IMG/VR virus record: IMGVR_UViG_3300028114_000957 | Location: 1-64,000 of that record | Reading direction: 5' to 3' (one strand) | Length of the DNA stretch: 64,000 nt | Source: a virus | Shown here: in pieces, positions 2,809 to 54,126 of the stretch | Layout of the letters: the number at the start of each line of letters is the position of its first letter | Position numbering within the stretch: position 1 is the first letter of the stretch | The notes under the pieces: generated by a model | Seen by the model: the letters and a program-made list of their open reading frames with translations, nothing else | Told to the model about the DNA's origin: nothing | Databases searched by the model: none | Position numbers and translations under genes: made by a program

Positions 2809-3598
2809 ACTTCAAAGATTACTCCACGAAGGGTTTTCAATGGGAACTTTAGAAAAGTTATCAAACGGACAATTAAACTTACTATATGGTAAGATTATGG
2901 AACAGGCTGGAGTATTAAATGTGAAAAAAGGCTCTGATGATGAAAATAAAGCTAAGGCATCAGGAAAAGCGTTTGTTACATATGAAGAAGAACTTGAAGA
3001 AGATATGGAAGACCCTATGGACTTCGAAATGGGAAAAAGAACACAAAGCCCTAAACAAGTTGGACCAGGAACTGATGATGGTCAAGATAGTTATGGTGAC
3101 GGAATGCCAACAGAGTCTGAAATGTATGAAAAGGCCGTATCAAAAAAACAAAGAGGTTTAATGGGTGCTGCTTATTCAGTTGAAAAAGGTTATAAAAAAA
3201 TGTCCGATATACCAAAAAGTTATAGAGGTAAAGTTAAAGATGTTGTTAAGTCTATGACAAAAAAACAAATCAAAGATTTTGCAAGCACATCCGATGATGA
3301 ACTAAAAGAAGGGTTTGGAGACATTTTTTTCAAAAAACAAAAAAGAGAATTTGAAAGTATGGTGATGGATGCCGATGCCAAATATGAAGAAACAGGTAAT
3401 TGTCATTATGTTGTTGATGGTAACTATGGAATGTATGTTACAGATGATATGACAGAAAACGAAGATAAAGTAGTATATGATACTTGTGAAGATGAAGTAG
3501 GTAATTTGGAAGAAAGTATTTTAAACATTATTCAAAAACATATTCCTCCACACTTTACAAAAAAAGAACTTTTAAGAAACTATAGAAATAGAATTTAA
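2798..3598 (+). CDS. Putative internal head protein with cleavable-type leader
   Basis: The frame is open from an ATG at 2789, but the start at 2798 is preferred because it gives the leader MNYKLQRLLHE-GFS. That short basic amphipathic helix ends in LHE, the (L/I)xE signature cut by T4-type prohead proteases. Similar leaders occur on other proteins in this window. The middle is acidic and polar (about 50-120) and the C-terminal part (about 190-240) has a beta-rich stretch with YVVDGNYGMYV. It overlaps the previous gene by 11 nt and lies 6 nt before terminase. The function is unknown; packaging into the head is inferred. Confidence 0.55.
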   Translation: MNYKLQRLLHEGFSMGTLEKLSNGQLNLLYGKIMEQAGVLNVKKGSDDENKAKASGKAFVTYEEELEEDMEDPMDFEMGKRTQSPKQVGPGTDDGQDSYGDGMPTESEMYEKAVSKKQRGLMGAAYSVEKGYKKMSDIPKSYRGKVKDVVKSMTKKQIKDFASTSDDELKEGFGDIFFKKQKREFESMVMDADAKYEETGNCHYVVDGNYGMYVTDDMTENEDKVVYDTCEDEVGNLEESILNIIQKHIPPHFTKKELLRNYRNRI

Positions 3599-3604
3599 AA
3601 ATGA

Positions 3605-5380
3605 ATGTCGTTATCAAAAGAACAAATATTATTAGAGTATGCTAAGTGTGTAAATGACACACCATATGCGCTTAAAACATATTTGCAAACTTACGACAAC
3701 ACACAATCTAAATACGTTCCATTAGAATTATTTAACGACCAAGTTACTCTTGTAAAAGACTACGATACGGCTGAAGAAAATATTGCATTAAAGTATCGTC
3801 AGGCTGGAGTATCAACCGTTACATCGGCTTGGGCATCTAAAAAATTGGTTTTTGCTAAAAAATCAAAACCAGAAAAAATCCTAATTATTGCAAACAAATT
3901 GGATACTGCTGTTGAAATGGCAAATAAAGTAAGGGCTTTTGTTGAACAATGGCCTTCTTGGTTAGGTGTAGGATTTTCATCTGAAAAAAATGCGGCAAGA
4001 CACTTTAAATTAAGTAATGGTTGTGAAGTAAAAGCCGTTGCAACATCAAAAGATGCTTTACGTGGATATACACCAACAATTCTTATTTTTGATGAGGCCG
4101 CTTATATTGACGCTGATGAAGACTTTTGGTCTGCATGTATGGCGTCTTTATCTACGGGTGGTAAAGTAATTGTAATTTCCACACCAAATGGATTTGACCC
4201 AATTTATTATTCAATTTATTCACAAGCAATCAAAGGAATGAATGACTTTAAGATTACTGAAATGTTTTGGTTTCGTGACCCAAGATATTCTAAAGATTTT
4301 AAGTTAATTAAGTGTGATGATATAATTCACTATATGTTAAATAGAAATGAATATAAAGATGATGAAATAATATTAGATTATTCAAATATAAAAGTATCCG
4401 ATAGAGATTTTGAAGAAATAAAAGAAAAACTAAATCAAGGGTATAAAGCGTATTCTTCTTGGTTTGAATCGATGTCAAAAAAATTAAAGTTTGACAAAAG
4501 AAAAATTTCACAAGAGTTGGAGTGTAACTTTTTAGGTTCGGGGGATAACGTAATACCTCCTGAAACAATGAAAAAAATAAAAGACAATTTTATTAAAGAA
4601 CCTGAAAATAAATTTATGGGCGGTGTATTGTGGCAATGGAAAGAACCGGTTGCAGGACACAGATACATAATGGGAATGGATGTTTCAAGAGGTGATAGTG
4701 AAGATTTTACAACTTTTATTATTATCGATTTTGATGAAAGAGAACAAGTTTTAGAATATATTGCAAAAGTTCCACCTGATATTGTTGCTGAAATCGCCTA
4801 TAAGTGGGCAACAATGTATAATGCATTTATTGTAACGGATATTACCGGTGGTATGGGTGTTGCAACATCAAGAAAGTTACAAGAGTTAGGTTATAAAAAT
4901 TTATATATAGATGGAATAAATCCTGCAGATAAATGGAAGTGGGACCCAAAACAAAATGACAAAATACCAGGAATTAATTTTAACTCAAAAAGAGTTCTTA
5001 TTGTTCAGGCGTTTGAGGAAGCTTTAAGATTTGGGTTTGCTGTAAGGTCTCAGAGGTTGTTTAATGAACTTAATACTTTTGTTTATGTGAATGGACGACC
5101 TGACCACCAAAAGGGTCAACACGATGACTTAATTATGGCAATGGCAATGGCCATTTATGTTGGGGAATCTTCTTTTGCTCAACTTGAAAAGGCCACAGAA
5201 CAGGCAAAAGCGATGATTGATTCTTGGACGACAGATAAAAATGTATTTAGAGAATCATCACAAAATTTTAACCCTTCAATTCCGTCTCAAACCGATATGT
5301 ATAATAGTAGAACGTATTCGGGACCAACAAAAGGTGATTATGAAAATTATTCTTGGTTATTTGGTGGTAGAAGAGTTTAA
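3605..5380 (+). CDS. terL: Terminase large subunit (T4 gp17 type)
   Basis: 591 residues, close to T4 gp17 (610). It is the DNA-packaging motor ATPase and headful nuclease acting at the portal. The Walker A-like loop is at 65-71 (RQAGVST), and Walker B plus the catalytic Glu are at 159-165 (ILIFDEA). The C-terminal RNase H-like nuclease shows its acidic residues at Asp359 (MGMDVSRGD), Asp412 (IVTDITGG) and Asp507/508 (HDDLIMAMA). The start at 3605 is used; an ATG 4 nt upstream is out of frame. No small terminase subunit is recognisable beside it. The portal follows after 33 nt. The identification is firm. Confidence 0.95.
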   Translation: MSLSKEQILLEYAKCVNDTPYALKTYLQTYDNTQSKYVPLELFNDQVTLVKDYDTAEENIALKYRQAGVSTVTSAWASKKLVFAKKSKPEKILIIANKLDTAVEMANKVRAFVEQWPSWLGVGFSSEKNAARHFKLSNGCEVKAVATSKDALRGYTPTILIFDEAAYIDADEDFWSACMASLSTGGKVIVISTPNGFDPIYYSIYSQAIKGMNDFKITEMFWFRDPRYSKDFKLIKCDDIIHYMLNRNEYKDDEIILDYSNIKVSDRDFEEIKEKLNQGYKAYSSWFESMSKKLKFDKRKISQELECNFLGSGDNVIPPETMKKIKDNFIKEPENKFMGGVLWQWKEPVAGHRYIMGMDVSRGDSEDFTTFIIIDFDEREQVLEYIAKVPPDIVAEIAYKWATMYNAFIVTDITGGMGVATSRKLQELGYKNLYIDGINPADKWKWDPKQNDKIPGINFNSKRVLIVQAFEEALRFGFAVRSQRLFNELNTFVYVNGRPDHQKGQHDDLIMAMAMAIYVGESSFAQLEKATEQAKAMIDSWTTDKNVFRESSQNFNPSIPSQTDMYNSRTYSGPTKGDYENYSWLFGGRRV

Positions 5381-5413: not shown

Positions 5414-8185
5414 ATGGCAGAAGAAAAATATACAGTTTGGCAAAGATTAGGTAAAGTTTTTGGACCAAATTCAACAATGGACCAACAGTCCCCTGTTTTT
5501 AAATTCGATAAAAAAGAACTTTTAAAAACACCAATAAAACAAGATTACGAAAGAGAAAAACTACAGGCTCAACAAACAATGTACATTGGTCAACAATGGC
5601 AAAAAGTTGAAAGTAACCTGTATCAACAGGCAGTATATTATGAACCAACAAGAATGGCTTCATATTATGATTATGAGTCAATGGAATATTGTTTAGCGGG
5701 TGACACTAAAATTGCAACTCCAAGTGGTTTTGTAACAATCAAAGAGTTAGCGGAAAAAGGTAGAGATTATGAATTTATTACTTATGCGTACGATTACAAT
5801 CTTAAAAAAGTGGTACCTGCAATTGCAAGAAATGCACATTACACTAGAGATGAAATGACTTATAAAATTACCTTTGATGACAAAAGTTTTATTATTGCAA
5901 CTTGGGAACACCAGTTTATGAAAAGAGATGGTTCATTTGAAAGGGTTATGAACTTGAAACTGGGGGATTCAATGATGCCGTTTTATCGTAAATCATTCTT
6001 TAATAATCAAAAATATAATTGGGTTTATACGTGTAATTCAAATGAGGGTCATAATGGATGGATTTCCGAACATAATTTAATTGCTGAATGGTTTTATGAT
6101 AAAAAAATAAATAAGGATGAAGAAGTTCATCATATAGATTTTGATGGTAAAAATAATTTACCTGAAAATTTACAAATAATGAAAATATCAGAACACAGAG
6201 CATATCACGCAAAAATAAATAATGAAAAATTATGGTCTAATCCTGATTATAGAAAAAAAATGTCAGAAGTTGCAAAAAGAAAAGGTAAATTAGTTTGGGG
6301 AGGAAGACGTAGTGGTGACAAAAATCCTGCATATATACAAATTGGTTGGGATAATATTATTGAAACGGCAAGAAAAATAAAAACTTTAAAAGGAACCTCT
6401 AAAGAATTAAATATATCTTATCGAAAATTACAAAGAGAAATTGTATCAAATGGGTATAAAGATTGGAATACTTTTTTGATGGCATATGGTATTAAAAAAT
6501 CACCGTTATCGACCGCAAAGGCAAAAAATGACGTAATTAATCTAAACCACAAAATATTATCAATTGAACCTTATGGTGTTGTTCCTGTTTATGATTTAAC
6601 GGTTCCAGGGTATAAAAATTTTGCAACAGATTCTATTTTTTCACATAATACTCCTGAAATTTCGGCAGCATTAGACATTTATGCTGAAGAATCAACAACA
6701 CCTGATAAAGATGGACACATTCTTCAAATTTATTCAGAATCAAAAAGAATCAAATCAGTTTTAACCGACTTATTCAACAATAAGTTAGATATTAATACAA
6801 ACTTACCAATGTGGATTAGAAATACGTGTAAGTTTGGTGACAACTTTGTGTATTTAAAATTGGACCCAGAACGAGGTGTTGTTGGTTGTCAACAATTACC
6901 TAACATTCAAATTGAACGTTTAGAAAAAGGTATGAAATTCCAACCTGAAAAATATTCTGCAGAAATTGAAAATGATGCGTTGAAGTTTACTTGGAAGGAA
7001 AAAAATATGGAGTTTAATACTTGGGAAGTTGCTCACTTTAGAATTTTAGGCGACGACAGAAAACTACCATACGGAACTTCAATGTTAGAAAAAGCACGTC
7101 GTATTTGGAAACAACTTTTGTTATCTGAAGACGCTATGTTGATTTATCGTGTATCAAGAGCTCCTGAAAGACGTGTATTTAAAGTTTTTGTTGGTAATAT
7201 GGACGATAAAGATGTTGATGCATACGTACAAAGAGTTGCAAACAAATTTAAAAGAGACCAAATTGTTGACCAAAAAACAGGAAATGTTGATATGAGATAT
7301 AATCAAATGGCGGTAGACCAAGATTACTTTATTCCTGTAAGAGATATGGCAGCCCCTGAACCAATAACAACATTAGCAGGAGCTCAAAACTTGGCTGAAA
7401 TTGCAGATATTGAATATATTCAAAAGAAATTAGTTACAGCATTAAGAATTCCAAAAGCGTATTTAGGATTTGAAGAGGCTGTTGGTGATGGTAAAAACTT
7501 ATCACTTCTCGACATTAGATTTGCAAGAACAATCAACCGAATTCAAAAATCTATGATTGCAGAAATGAACAAAATTGCAATCATTCATTTATTTTTATTA
7601 GGGTTTGAAGATGAATTAACAAACTTTACTCTTGGACTTACAAATCCGTCAAAACAATCTGACCTTCTTGGTATAGAACTATGGAAAGAAAAAATCACAT
7701 TGTTTAAAGATGCTGTTGCACCAATTCAAGATAGTGTTGCTCCTGTATCTGCGTCTTGGGCCAAAAAACATATTTTAGGATTTTCTGATGATGAAATTAG
7801 ACTTGATTTACAACAACAAAGAATTGAAAGAGCGGTATCTGCCGAGTTAGGTAAAACTGCTGAGGTAATAACTAAAACAGGATTATTTGATACTCTTGAT
7901 TCATTATACGGTAAAAAAGATGTGCCAGCCGCTGGTGGTGAAGCCGGAGGGGCGGCACCTGAAGGAGGAATGCCGCCTGAAGAAGGAGGAGGAGCACCTC
8001 CTGCACCTGAAGCTCCTCCAGCACCTGAAGGTGGAGGGGTAACTCCTGAAAGTTTTAACAAAAAAGATTTAAATTTAATTTTAGAAAATACTTTTTTTGA
8101 TAAGGACAACACTTTAGATTTATCAAAAGGACGAATGTCCCTAAATGAAATAGATGATAAAATTAAAAACTTATTGAATAAGTAA
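5414..8185 (+). CDS. Portal protein (T4 gp20 type) interrupted by an intein
   Basis: 923 residues encoded. Removing the predicted intein (residues 93-412) leaves a 603-residue portal, a typical gp20-like size. The extein resumes with TPEISAALDIYAEEST and continues with the portal core (DDRKLPYGTSML, RAPERRVFKVFVGNM). The dodecameric portal forms the unique head vertex and channel through which terminase packs DNA. After the core comes a Pro/Gly/Ala/Glu-rich stretch (about 835-880) and a conserved-looking helical tail. The order terminase-portal-protease-scaffold-capsid follows T4. No Shine-Dalgarno is present; the leader is A-rich. Confidence 0.93.
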   Translation: MAEEKYTVWQRLGKVFGPNSTMDQQSPVFKFDKKELLKTPIKQDYEREKLQAQQTMYIGQQWQKVESNLYQQAVYYEPTRMASYYDYESMEYCLAGDTKIATPSGFVTIKELAEKGRDYEFITYAYDYNLKKVVPAIARNAHYTRDEMTYKITFDDKSFIIATWEHQFMKRDGSFERVMNLKLGDSMMPFYRKSFFNNQKYNWVYTCNSNEGHNGWISEHNLIAEWFYDKKINKDEEVHHIDFDGKNNLPENLQIMKISEHRAYHAKINNEKLWSNPDYRKKMSEVAKRKGKLVWGGRRSGDKNPAYIQIGWDNIIETARKIKTLKGTSKELNISYRKLQREIVSNGYKDWNTFLMAYGIKKSPLSTAKAKNDVINLNHKILSIEPYGVVPVYDLTVPGYKNFATDSIFSHNTPEISAALDIYAEESTTPDKDGHILQIYSESKRIKSVLTDLFNNKLDINTNLPMWIRNTCKFGDNFVYLKLDPERGVVGCQQLPNIQIERLEKGMKFQPEKYSAEIENDALKFTWKEKNMEFNTWEVAHFRILGDDRKLPYGTSMLEKARRIWKQLLLSEDAMLIYRVSRAPERRVFKVFVGNMDDKDVDAYVQRVANKFKRDQIVDQKTGNVDMRYNQMAVDQDYFIPVRDMAAPEPITTLAGAQNLAEIADIEYIQKKLVTALRIPKAYLGFEEAVGDGKNLSLLDIRFARTINRIQKSMIAEMNKIAIIHLFLLGFEDELTNFTLGLTNPSKQSDLLGIELWKEKITLFKDAVAPIQDSVAPVSASWAKKHILGFSDDEIRLDLQQQRIERAVSAELGKTAEVITKTGLFDTLDSLYGKKDVPAAGGEAGGAAPEGGMPPEEGGGAPPAPEAPPAPEGGGVTPESFNKKDLNLILENTFFDKDNTLDLSKGRMSLNEIDDKIKNLLNK
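5690..6649 (+). other. Intein with HNH-type endonuclease domain, in the portal gene
   Basis: 320 residues, in frame with the portal. Block A begins at Cys93 (CLAGDTKIAT). Block B is ATWEHQFM. The C-terminal blocks are VYDLTVPGYKNFATDS and the splice end SHN, followed by Thr413 as the +1 nucleophile. The central part has an HNH_3-like motif (EEVHHIDFDGKNNLPENL, about 236-253), so this is a full homing intein rather than a mini-intein. The catalytic residues for splicing (Cys1, block B His, penultimate His, terminal Asn, +1 Thr) are all present, so it should be active. The insertion point lies in the conserved EY|TPEIS segment of the portal. Confidence 0.92.
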
Positions 8186-50529: not shown

Positions 50530-51249
50530 TTAGTCATTAAGTTTTGACTGCGTCGAATATAAATCATTTACAAACCCCCAATTAACCACCTTCCAAAAGT
50601 TTGAAACGTACTTATCCCTTTGATTTTTATACTTTAAATAATACGCATGTTCCCAAACATCTAACCCCAAAAGAGGATATCCTCTAACTTCTTGGTTGTC
50701 CATTAATGGGTTATCTTGATTTGCGGTTGTAACAATTTTTAGTCTATTAGTTTTAGTTAATATTAACCAAACCCACCCTGAACCAAATCTTGATTTTGCC
50801 TCTTCTTCAAACTTTTCTTTAAATTTTTCAAAAGAACCAAAAGTTTTTTCAATTTTAGATTTTATTGGGTCTTCAAGTTTTTGTTTTTTTGGTGAAAGCA
50901 TTTTCCAAAATAATGCATGATTAAATGCTCCGCCACCATTATTTCTAACAACAGTATTAAACTTTGATATGTCTGAAACTATTTGTTCCAAATCTAAATC
51001 TTTCCCTTTAACTTTTTCTAATTCTTTGTTTAACTTATCAACATAACCTTTGTAATGTTTGTTGTAGTGAGTATTCATAGTCTCACTATCAATAAAAACT
51101 TCTAAAGAATTATAATCATATGGTAATTTATCTATACTGATTTTTTTAATTTCACTAATTAAGGTGATTTTTTCAGATGATTCAATTTCTAATAATGATT
51201 CAATATGATTGATTGTTTTTAAGTACCCTTCGAAAATTTTTGATTTCAT
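50530..51249 (-). CDS. Iron/manganese superoxide dismutase with N-terminal extension
   Basis: 239 residues. Converts superoxide to peroxide and oxygen. Metal ligands are visible: His61 (MNTHYNKHYKGYV), His111 (FNHALFW), Asp197 and His201 (GLDVWEHAYYLKY). The usual core start PYDYNSLE lies at 43-50, so about 40 extra residues precede it. The extension (MKSKIFEGYLKTINHIESLLE) is basic-amphipathic and includes LLE, like the leaders seen on putative packaged proteins. The metal cannot be decided by eye. A TATTTATT motif precedes it. Confidence 0.9.
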   Translation of the reverse strand: MKSKIFEGYLKTINHIESLLEIESSEKITLISEIKKISIDKLPYDYNSLEVFIDSETMNTHYNKHYKGYVDKLNKELEKVKGKDLDLEQIVSDISKFNTVVRNNGGGAFNHALFWKMLSPKKQKLEDPIKSKIEKTFGSFEKFKEKFEEEAKSRFGSGWVWLILTKTNRLKIVTTANQDNPLMDNQEVRGYPLLGLDVWEHAYYLKYKNQRDKYVSNFWKVVNWGFVNDLYSTQSKLND

Positions 51250-51261: not shown

Positions 51262-54126
51262 TCACCTCCTATAGGAAATCATATTTAACATTTCTTCAAT
51301 TGTCGATGCGTCATCCATCATATCGTCACCCATAACTGTTGCTATGATTTTTTTCTTCCTATTGAGTATGTCGTATATCGCACCTTCAATAGTGTTTTCA
51401 AAAAGTGGATAATAAACAGATGTGGAATTTTTTTGTCCTATTCTATGGGACCTGTCTTCGGCTTGTGAATGTTCTGCAGGAACAAATGATAAATCATTCA
51501 TTATCACGGCTTCAGCTGACGTTAAAGTAATACCAACCCCTGCAGCTTTCAGGTTTCCAACAAATACTCTTATTTTGTCGTTTGTTTGAAATTCATCCAC
51601 AGCGTTTTGTCTATGAAACTTAGAACAACTACCGTCAAGATAGACCGCTTGTTTTCCAAAATGATTGTAAATTATGTTTAATGTATCTGTAAAATTTGTA
51701 AAAATAATAACCTTTTTACCTTGCTCAATAATATTTTCAGCTAACTCAATTGTATTATTTATTTTTTCTTGAGCGATAACTTTTCTAACTTTCATTAACT
51801 TTGAAAACTGAATTGTTAACGATGAAGACTCTTCAGGTCTTGAATCGTACCAATCAAAATATTCCCCCATTAACTCTTCATAATCTTTTGACTTTAGTCT
51901 TAAATAAACAGGAGTTATAATTTTTTCAGGTAAATCTAACACTTCTTCTTTTAATCTTCTAAGAATATGTGTTTGAGTTCTTTCTCTTAATTCTTCTAAA
52001 TTTGATGCCCCTGTTACGTTCCAAACTTTTCTTTTACCAACACTAAATTGAAACCCATTACAATATCTTTTAGCGTATGCCATCCAATTCGCAGCCACAG
52101 GACTATCAACTAAATTTAATAAGTTATAATAATTCATAGGTCTTGAGGTTATAGGGGTTCCAGTTAATAACCAAACTCTTTCAATCGATGTTGCTATGTC
52201 ATTTATTATTTTAGTGCGTTGAGCTTGTGGGTTACTCACAACATGACAATTACTGACTAAAATATTATTTGCAAAATAATTGTGATTATCTACAACTTCT
52301 AAATCGTATACGCTTGTATTTTTTTCAGACAATCCATTATATTGTTGTCGATTTCTTCGTTCCAAAATCTTAATACTGTCCACCCCAATGAAGTTAATAT
52401 TTCTGTTTTTCTTTTGTCTATAAATTTCCATTTTTTTAGTTTGTGGCTTTTCCCATCTATTTCTATAATTAACATCAGTTTCAAATTGGCGATATCTACA
52501 TTGTAATGATTTGGTAAACTTTTTTGATGTCCAATATAATCTTTTGTTAAAATAGTGTATTCCATTTCCCACTCTTGACTTAAAACTTTGTATAATTTTT
52601 TTTGTTGTTTTGTTAATGTCCCGTTTCCGCCTCTCGATAAAAAAGTTTTTCCAGACAAAGATTTTTTCATTTTTTCCAATGATTCCAAATTGAACATTGG
52701 GTTGTTTTTTTTCATTCTTTCCGACGATTCCTTCCTTATATTTGGATTTTTCCTGTGAACTTCTTTCATTTTTTCTGACATATTGTGTTTTTTCATGGAG
52801 TTTTTCCACTTCTGTCTTGTTTCTTCTTTTTTCCATTTCATTTTGCTTGCGCAACTTATTGAACAACAAATTTGTTTTTTCATTTGTGATTGTGTTTGAA
52901 ATTTCATTATTTCTCCACAATGTAAACATTTTTTTTGATGTTTTAATTCTATTTCTTTTTTTTGTGGTGGATTTTTTTTGTAACGATATGTCGTGCTGCA
53001 AGATTTTGAACAAGTTTGACTCTTCTTCATTATTTGTTTTTTTGTTAATAATTTTTGACAATTCAAACACATAGTCGTTTGTATTAATTTTATCGGCTCT
53101 AACATATCCTTTATCTTTTACATATATTTTATGATTTGGTGTACACTCTATAAATACTCCGTTGTGTAATTTAATTTGAAGTATAGTGTCTGTTTTTTTA
53201 AATAATTTTCTAAATATTTTTTTGTATTCGGTTTTTTTTGTGTTGTGATTATAAGACAAAATATCTACATCTAAATTTTTTTCAACAATATCACCAATTT
53301 TAATTTCACCTTTATTTGTTGTTATTTTAGTGTCGTAAGTAAAACATTCGTCAGCAATTAAAAGGTCAAAATTAGATTTTAATATTTCAGAATTTTCTTT
53401 ATTTTTAGGGTCGTGAAAGTTTTTTAAAATGTCGTAATTTATTATCACAATGTCGTGATTCGTTGAAAACTTCTTCCCTTCAGCAATATAAACATTACGG
53501 TCACTATATATATTAATCTCTCTTTGCCAATTTATTTTAAGCGAAGCGGGACATATTATTAGTATTTTTTTAATATCAGATTCTAACGCGGCGATTACTG
53601 ACGAACCCGTTTTTGCAAGTCCCATATCGTCAGCTAAAATAAACTTTTTATTACCAACCAATTTTTCAATAGCAACCTTTTGATGTTCCATTGGTGGTCT
53701 AACGTAATACTTGCTATAATCAATAACAATATTTTTTACTTCGTTGTCTTTAATGATTGCAGATTTTGGTATCCAAAAATCGTGTAATGTTTCACCACTA
53801 AAAATCTTACCCCAAATATGAAAAGCTTTATCTTTTTCTACTAATAACTTTTCAACATAAATTTCAGAAGGTTCTTTTGTATACATTTTGTCCTCCATAA
53901 GTTTTTTACCAAAATATGAGTCTAACTTAACCCATTTTTTTGCAACCTTTGGATTTGTGTTCCTATAATTTATTATGTATTCAGATTGACTTCTTGTTGG
54001 GGTAAAAGATTTACTATTTTCCTTTTTGTGTTTTAAATTTAGGATATAGTTATTTGACCCTTCATAATCTTCTAATATTAAAAGGGCCTTTGACTCTGGT
54101 GTTTTTGACACAAAATCTTCACTCAT
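51262..54126 (-). CDS. SNF2-type DNA helicase/translocase interrupted by an intein
   Basis: 954 residues encoded, 588 after removal of the intein. SF2/SNF2 motifs: motif I LADDMGLAKTGSS (164-175), motif II split as DE|CH (259-260 and 627-628), motif III LLTGTP (653-658), and motif VI QAEDRSHRIGQ (888-898). The first 140 residues are a phage-specific domain. Such enzymes reanneal or remodel branched DNA or restart replication. A host-type promoter (TTGATT-N17-TATATT) precedes it, like the polymerase. The intein lies exactly in Walker B, so splicing is required for activity. Confidence 0.92.
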   Translation of the reverse strand: MSEDFVSKTPESKALLILEDYEGSNNYILNLKHKKENSKSFTPTRSQSEYIINYRNTNPKVAKKWVKLDSYFGKKLMEDKMYTKEPSEIYVEKLLVEKDKAFHIWGKIFSGETLHDFWIPKSAIIKDNEVKNIVIDYSKYYVRPPMEHQKVAIEKLVGNKKFILADDMGLAKTGSSVIAALESDIKKILIICPASLKINWQREINIYSDRNVYIAEGKKFSTNHDIVIINYDILKNFHDPKNKENSEILKSNFDLLIADECFTYDTKITTNKGEIKIGDIVEKNLDVDILSYNHNTKKTEYKKIFRKLFKKTDTILQIKLHNGVFIECTPNHKIYVKDKGYVRADKINTNDYVFELSKIINKKTNNEEESNLFKILQHDISLQKKSTTKKRNRIKTSKKMFTLWRNNEISNTITNEKTNLLFNKLRKQNEMEKRRNKTEVEKLHEKTQYVRKNERSSQEKSKYKEGIVGKNEKKQPNVQFGIIGKNEKIFVWKNFFIERRKRDINKTTKKIIQSFKSRVGNGIHYFNKRLYWTSKKFTKSLQCRYRQFETDVNYRNRWEKPQTKKMEIYRQKKNRNINFIGVDSIKILERRNRQQYNGLSEKNTSVYDLEVVDNHNYFANNILVSNCHVVSNPQAQRTKIINDIATSIERVWLLTGTPITSRPMNYYNLLNLVDSPVAANWMAYAKRYCNGFQFSVGKRKVWNVTGASNLEELRERTQTHILRRLKEEVLDLPEKIITPVYLRLKSKDYEELMGEYFDWYDSRPEESSSLTIQFSKLMKVRKVIAQEKINNTIELAENIIEQGKKVIIFTNFTDTLNIIYNHFGKQAVYLDGSCSKFHRQNAVDEFQTNDKIRVFVGNLKAAGVGITLTSAEAVIMNDLSFVPAEHSQAEDRSHRIGQKNSTSVYYPLFENTIEGAIYDILNRKKKIIATVMGDDMMDDASTIEEMLNMISYRR
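52249..53346 (-). other. Intein in Walker B of the SNF2 helicase, with out-of-frame endonuclease
   Basis: 366 residues in the helicase frame (residues 261-626). Block A is CFTYDTKITT at Cys261, block B is GVFIECTPNHKIYV, and the end is VYDLEVVDNHNYFANNILVSN, then Cys627 as the +1 nucleophile. The penultimate residue is Ser instead of His, a known but less common variant. Residues about 350-600 have no recognisable domain: they are Lys/Arg/Asn-rich. This is because the same DNA carries the endonuclease in another frame (52299-53105). Confidence 0.9.
52299..53105 (-). CDS. Homing endonuclease nested out of frame inside the helicase intein
   Basis: 268 residues in the frame one base later than the helicase/intein frame. 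The probable start is Met12 at 53072 (MCLNCQKLL); the first 11 residues are shadow. Domains: a zinc-ribbon pair (CLNC ... CSKSC, then CLHCGE ... CCSISC), NUMOD3-like sequence (NPNIRKESSERMKKNNPMF, then LEKMKKSLSGK), and a Vsr/DUF559-like nuclease. The nuclease shows YNVDIANLKLMLIIEIDGKS and LGWTVLRFWNEEI. The layout resembles the free-standing endonuclease at 39495. The whole gene lies between intein blocks B and F. Confidence 0.85.
   Translation of the reverse strand: MLEPIKLIQTTMCLNCQKLLTKKQIMKKSQTCSKSCSTTYRYKKNPPQKKEIELKHQKKCLHCGEIMKFQTQSQMKKQICCSISCASKMKWKKEETRQKWKNSMKKHNMSEKMKEVHRKNPNIRKESSERMKKNNPMFNLESLEKMKKSLSGKTFLSRGGNGTLTKQQKKLYKVLSQEWEMEYTILTKDYIGHQKSLPNHYNVDIANLKLMLIIEIDGKSHKLKKWKFIDKRKTEILTSLGWTVLRFWNEEIDNNIMDCLKKIQAYTI

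Follow-up and report, generated by a model that had tools for sequence, protein, structure and literature searches.

In a stretch of viral DNA of 64,000 nucleotides (nt; positions 1 to 64,000 of the IMG/VR record IMGVR_UViG_3300028114_000957, referred to here as the window), the gene of an SNF2-type helicase contains an intein, and the same bases carry the gene of a nuclease in the +1 frame. In our opinion, this is very probably a mobile intein consisting of two genes on one DNA, with a Hint splicing domain in the helicase frame and a separate nuclease in the other. Both open reading frames (ORFs), the folds of their products, the insertion site and the mosaic flank of the element were established by computation, and from these we infer splicing, independent initiation of the nuclease, cleavage and homing. 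The helicase frame would be read through, the Hint domain would excise itself and the helicase would be restored, the middle of the intein acting only as a flexible stop-free linker. An internal +1 start on the same mRNA would give a separate endonuclease of the zinc-ribbon/EDxHD type, which would cleave the Walker B codons of helicase alleles that lack the intein, and repair of a cut allele would copy the intein, the nuclease and some of the flank. The architecture is real and widespread, and what is new in it is that the endonuclease, of the EDxHD type, exists as an overlapping gene in an element expected to behave otherwise as a mobile intein.

The helicase ORF gives Pfam matches to SNF2-rel_dom (1.3e-19), Helicase_C (1.8e-16) and Intein_splicing (5.9e-11) and is free of stops along the entire intein. 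The Cys1 codon of the intein is located at 53346 and its terminal Asn codon finishes at 52249, followed by Cys+1; the borders and the fully open helicase frame reported in an earlier note, made from the sequence of this DNA alone, proved to be exact. Helicases of intein-less relatives have DEAH at this site, so the invaded allele has Cys in place of Ala, serving as the +1 nucleophile. The NCBIfam and Pfam intein profiles TIGR01445 (1.8e-13), TIGR01443 and PF14890 all score above cut-off in one open frame, and the splicing residues C1, T69..H72, N366 and C+1 are present according to the sequence and the alignment. The best profile match of the splicing domain (5e-23) is the Spl DnaX mini-intein (PDB 7cfv, called a mini-intein from its PDB name), whose host is a clamp loader, as in part of the family considered here. 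In the AlphaFold2 (AF2) model of the intein frame, the predicted local distance difference test (pLDDT) is mostly above 90 for residues 1-98, about 42-61 for 101-314, near 91 for a strand at 317-329 and about 94-95 for the final 22 residues; with this model Foldseek retrieves mini-inteins (probability 1.0) and split inteins. The intein frame is predicted to fold as two Hint halves linked by a disordered stretch. A hidden domain in this linker was rejected for lack of any Pfam match and because of the low AF2 confidence, which agrees with the earlier claim of a domain-free middle, but the intein frame provides more than a linker here, as it also holds a predicted Hint strand of about 13 residues.

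One base further on, as was stated earlier, a second frame encodes 268 residues (ORF 53105..52299, in +1). Its ATG sits within the Tyr-Val codons after block B, and its TAG falls inside block F. The profile search of both frames recommended in the earlier note was positive in each, as Intein_splicing was found in the helicase frame and DUF559 (Pfam, 2.2e-16) in the other. Among the nuclease parts which had been named, the zinc ribbons are recognisable as CxxC..CxxxC pairs, the supposed NUMOD3 part gives no NUMOD3 profile match in Pfam, and the Vsr match is weak (0.0062, NCBIfam); Vsr proper was rejected as the nuclease family, DUF559/EDxHD being the better fit. An AF2 model of the nuclease obtained with 70 family sequences has a pLDDT of 92.3, and its top Foldseek matches are 3hrl and 3r3p (probability 1.0, E about 2e-3 to 4e-3). 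The latter structure shows the catalytic domain of I-Bth0305I, a homing endonuclease (profile match to the nuclease, E=5.8e-4), and EDxHD enzymes including I-Bth0305I have been described (PMC3943268). Residues E215, D217, H221 and D230 are invariant across the 70 sequences and were equated with the EDxHD catalytic four by motif name and spacing, without residue-by-residue superposition. Judging by sequence and model, the nuclease resembles the DUF559/EDxHD family and is nearest to I-Bth0305I. In PHROGs, no match was found for the nuclease of the window, and a weak HNH match of the nuclease from one Vibrio relative is confined to the zinc-ribbon part.

The probability of two such frames arising by chance was estimated with the nuclease protein fixed, codons drawn from the usage of the host gene and stops counted in the intein frame. 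In the window, 21.9 stops were expected and 0 observed (P = 4e-15), and over 73 non-redundant elements the median P(no stop) was 2e-10; on GC-rich elements alone the test is weak (P up to 0.1). Together with 171 recurrences of the arrangement, this confirms the earlier opinion that the double open frame is not accidental. The comparison of substitutions in each frame, also proposed there, showed the nuclease frame to be the better conserved: amino-acid identity over the same bases was higher in it than in the intein frame in 15/15 pairs compared, and base changes in these pairs cluster at nuclease third positions. Changed four-fold sites amount to 0-0.36 (mostly under 0.2) in the intein frame versus up to 0.77 in the host gene. 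The nuclease is under purifying selection, and stops are strictly avoided in the intein frame.

Nuclease alignments were used to scan contigs of viruses and bacteria for members of the family, which were then classed by profiles of the nuclease and of both intein ends; chromosomal DUF559 matches (L195-L248), which resemble the domain only distantly and have no intein blocks, were left out. This gave 184 non-redundant nucleases. Of these, 171 are enclosed by a contiguous intein with an open frame and always occupy +1, and none lies in frame with the intein (0/184) or in +2 (0/184). Intein halves on different ORFs were found in 5 elements, 3 nucleases are free-standing (L169, L171 and L172), and the remaining 5 are at contig ends or have one intein block undetected. 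Both frames are open in L003, L004 and L005, the nucleases of which are 88-89% identical to that of the window, so the break of the second frame in close relatives that could have disproved the idea does not occur; both are also open in distant relatives with 30-60% identity (L007-L009, phage isolates of Vibrio, Pseudomonas and Corynebacterium). Isolates carrying the element are Vibrio phages, Pseudomonas MR14 and Corynebacterium phi673; the genes are mostly annotated as helicase, and the nested nuclease is annotated in 0/5 isolate phage regions read. All matches in the phage record collection (40/40) come from Vibrio, Corynebacterium and Pseudomonas phages, and with no more than the Vibrio phages, phi673 and MR14 represented, a PhagesDB survey would probably miss most of the family. 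A plasmid scan gave only distant DUF559 matches. Among the invaded genes are those of SF2 and SNF2 helicases and of clamp-loader subunits of DNA polymerase III. The insertion point is exactly DE/C..N/(C or S) in 63/73 elements and EE/C in 1, and the others are located a few codons further on.

Table. Position of the helicase gene, the intein, the nested nuclease and their parts in the window.
Feature	Position	Strand	Size or residues	Basis or remark
SNF2-type helicase gene including intein	51262..54126	-	954 codons	ORF list; Pfam
Intein, helicase frame	52249..53346	-	366 codons	Insertion in Walker B (motif II), DE/C...SN/CH
N-terminal Hint half	53053..53346	-	residues 1-98; Cys1, TxxH at 69-72	TIGR01445, AF2, Foldseek
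Intein-frame linker, domain-free, predicted disordered	52405..53046	-	residues 101-314	Pfam, AF2
C-terminal Hint part, blocks F and G	52249..52314	-	residues 345-366	TIGR01443; pLDDT 94-95
Nested nuclease ORF, +1 frame relative to intein	52299..53105	-	268 codons and TAG	DUF559; AF2
TAA in nuclease frame, 12 nt upstream of nuclease ATG	53118..53120	-		Bounds upstream entry
First nuclease Cys set, zinc-ribbon-like	52998..53069	-	C13 C16 ... C32 C36	Sequence, alignment
Second Cys set, zinc-ribbon-like	52851..52928	-	C60 C63 ... C81 C85	Nearly invariant, 70 sequences
Conserved RMKxNNPM segment, NUMOD3-like by eye only	52689..52727	-		Alignment
Nuclease catalytic domain	52311..52619	-	residues 163-265	Invariant E215, D217, H221, D230; Foldseek
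Dual-coded segment	52360..52398	-	intein residues 317-329 and nuclease residues 237-249	Both AF2 models ordered
Intein and flanking divergent tract	52129..53766	-		Comparison with intein-less L011

Shine-Dalgarno sequences of at least 5 nt, up to AAGGAGGT, precede the first nested ATG in 25/73 elements, while in the control they were found at 32/505 out-of-frame ATGs of host genes (p = 3e-10), and the distance from the upstream stop to the first start codon of the nuclease frame has a median of 4 codons. This enrichment and the short open lead favour internal initiation over frameshifting, and the nuclease is probably initiated separately from the nested start. Programmed +1 frameshifting, which would yield a fusion of N-extein, N-intein and nuclease and no separate protein, is an improbable explanation: it would agree with the +1 offset of every contiguous case and with the nuclease frames of some elements, which are already open a long way before a plausible start is reached, but it is opposed by the strong Shine-Dalgarno sequences before the nested ATG in one third of the elements, by the usual opening of the nuclease frame only a few codons before the start codon, by the entry region upstream of the ATG, which in the window is 12 nt only, and by four split relatives, in which such a nuclease has an ORF of its own.

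Some observations weigh against the reading as a mobile two-gene intein. In the window, Ser occupies the penultimate position of the intein, where most relatives have His. The nested ATG of the window has no well-spaced Shine-Dalgarno sequence, AAAGGA ending 1 nt before it; this is uninformative because only 2/54 genes of the window have a Shine-Dalgarno match of at least 5 nt. Finally, the complete absence of T-ending nuclease codons before AA, AG or GA in contiguous elements (0/6790, compared with 35% elsewhere) is partly a matter of definition, since the contiguous class demands an open frame, and therefore the weight rests on the 171/176 intein-borne cases with both blocks found that are open. 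This avoidance is gone in relatives that are split (42 v 44%) or free-standing (39 v 38%), and the middle of the intein frame is apparently kept merely stop-free.

Particularly close overlap of the two proteins was found in the dual-coded segment. In the intein frame it reads GVDSIKILERRNR, a predicted Hint strand well ahead of block F, and in the nuclease frame LTSLGWTVLRFWN, a conserved core with the motif LxxLGWxVLRFxN and invariant G241, W242, R246, F247 and N249. The pairing of RVESVEIL in the intein frame over LGWKVLRF in the nuclease recurs across 73 aligned elements. Such sharing of a Hint strand and a nuclease core may lock the frames and can explain the constant +1 offset, which we keep as inference because the intein-frame motif partly follows from the nuclease motif.

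In comparison with the intein-less helicase gene of L011, identity is 65-82% over about 420 nt upstream and 120 nt downstream of the insertion and mostly 92-100% over the remainder of the gene, and this divergent tract is, as judged from sequence comparison, a probable co-conversion footprint of homing. The intein is sporadic among near relatives, most of which are without it, and in the pair L091/L093 the element is less diverged than the host gene. Homing and nuclease activity are themselves predictions, and DUF559 proteins have varied uses, so it might be supposed that the element, though both of its frames are genuine, is immobile here, the nuclease being kept for another role (for example recombination or exclusion of rival phages) with the intein as a passenger; this is quite unlikely, since nearly all insertions hit a single short conserved target or lie only a few codons from it, the tract resembles co-conversion and the element occurs sporadically in close relatives. 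There is practically no chance that two compensating indels, arising naturally or in assembly, moved an in-frame endonuclease out of frame and left a dead nuclease. Nothing but the general plausibility of paired indels speaks for it, and recurrence in 171 non-redundant contigs, isolate phage genomes among them, rejects it for the family. The relative with one continuous in-frame endonuclease by which the earlier note would have exposed assembly indels is missing among all those found, so that such indels are excluded. In addition, the active-site residues are invariant in 70 sequences, and of the two frames that of the nuclease is better conserved.

The two-gene intein shares with canonical mobile inteins of the PI-SceI type the Hint domain, Cys1, TxxH, the terminal Asn and Cys+1, as well as the insertion in a conserved active-site motif and the position of the endonuclease between blocks B and F. 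It differs from them in that no endonuclease is in frame between these blocks, the enzyme being a separate +1 ORF outside the spliced polypeptide; intein endonucleases have been described as made in fusion with the intein (Stoddard 2014, PMC3943268). The author of the earlier note knew of no family exactly like this one. In fact, no paper on an intein with an out-of-frame DUF559/EDxHD nuclease was found, though works cited in PMC11855218 may hold earlier cases, but a partial precedent exists: in the ShiLan domain and the Pacc40 insertion of phage methylase genes, an HNH endonuclease is hidden in another frame (Arsenault 2025, PMC11855218). No splicing domain or Shine-Dalgarno sequence was detected in them, the insert is believed to remain part of the methylase, and leaderless initiation was suggested (PMC11855218). 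The element of the window is similar to them in having an endonuclease in the other frame, an open host frame of the insert and a mobile distribution; unlike these HNH insertions devoid of a splicing domain, it comprises a full Hint intein and a DUF559/EDxHD nuclease. The same paper cites, for overlapping frames, a preprint on actinobacteriophage inteins (Gosselin 2025, 'Non-Canonical Architecture') and Gorbalenya 1998 ('Non-canonical inteins'), and, as far as these citations indicate, both may describe inteins with overlapping-frame endonucleases.

Four relatives (L160, L328, L330 and L331) have a split layout of three ORFs, and their linker carries 15-30 stops. The N-half ends shortly after the nuclease start and the C-half can begin before the nuclease stop, so both end overlaps with the nuclease persist. 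Fractured genes, reportedly described by Dassa in 2009, are said to contain a split intein, the halves of which are separated by a free-standing Vsr-like endonuclease. The nuclease fold and the flanking Hint halves are the same here, and the fractured arrangement, with separate host/intein ORFs and an endonuclease ORF between them, is seen in the four split relatives; in the window, by contrast, a contiguous intein encloses the entire nuclease in the other frame. In the nuclease tree, the split relatives form one group (Shimodaira-Hasegawa-like approximate likelihood ratio test, SH-aLRT, 100) among contiguous ones; the sets around this group, of 20 and 56 rows, have support of 81 and 86, its immediate neighbours are unsupported, and the deep root is weak, the outgroup covering only about 30% of the columns. 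This suggests that decay of the open linker gives a split intein and a free endonuclease and is a route to fractured genes. It is rather likely, with some reservation, that this arrangement stands at the foundation of a large and old class of 'nested-frame inteins', in which the splicing domain and the homing endonuclease are overlapping genes with shared bases for ordered structure in both proteins, that the class is spread over the Walker B motif of several ATPase families, and that loss of the open linker leads from it to the split inteins of fractured genes. In L131, the clamp-loader intein has one in-frame stop in the linker, at position 3272, which is either the first step toward a split intein or a sequencing error.

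The significance of these findings is that, contrary to the textbook rule of in-frame fusion, the endonuclease is a separate gene hidden in another frame, and that about 170 lineages offer a clear example from nature of a single DNA stretch encoding two ordered protein segments. They provide a testable origin for natural split inteins, which are used as tools of protein ligation, and a possible source of new split inteins and rare-cutting nucleases, as well as a warning that gene callers miss nested genes of such kind.

Helicases of L016, L032, L037, L039, L047, L055 and L056 contain a different, in-frame intein after GK of Walker A, which looks LAGLIDADG-type by eye; the Walker A and Walker B motifs of one helicase gene are rival homing sites. 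At about 53600-53630, Walker A of the window and of L003 reads GLAKTG versus GLGKTT in intein-less relatives, a change that falls in the probable co-conversion tract and alters this motif. Speculatively, it possibly shields the helicase from the Walker A intein. In L169, the free-standing nuclease (2946-3591) is placed directly upstream of an intein-less helicase (from 3556), the Walker B codons of which (site near 3900) show a frameshift exactly at the insertion point, caused either by error-prone repair after a cut or by an assembly error.

A second intein of the same phage, at about 5732-6649, is found in the T4-like portal protein gene (5414-8185, +). It has a weak in-frame HNH_3 match (0.00033) and thus the ordinary in-frame layout, providing an internal contrast. 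The helicase gene is adjoined by the gene of an Fe/Mn superoxide dismutase (50530-51249, -; Sod_Fe_C 3.7e-42), which is retained in relatives and in several of them has an additional N-terminal segment.
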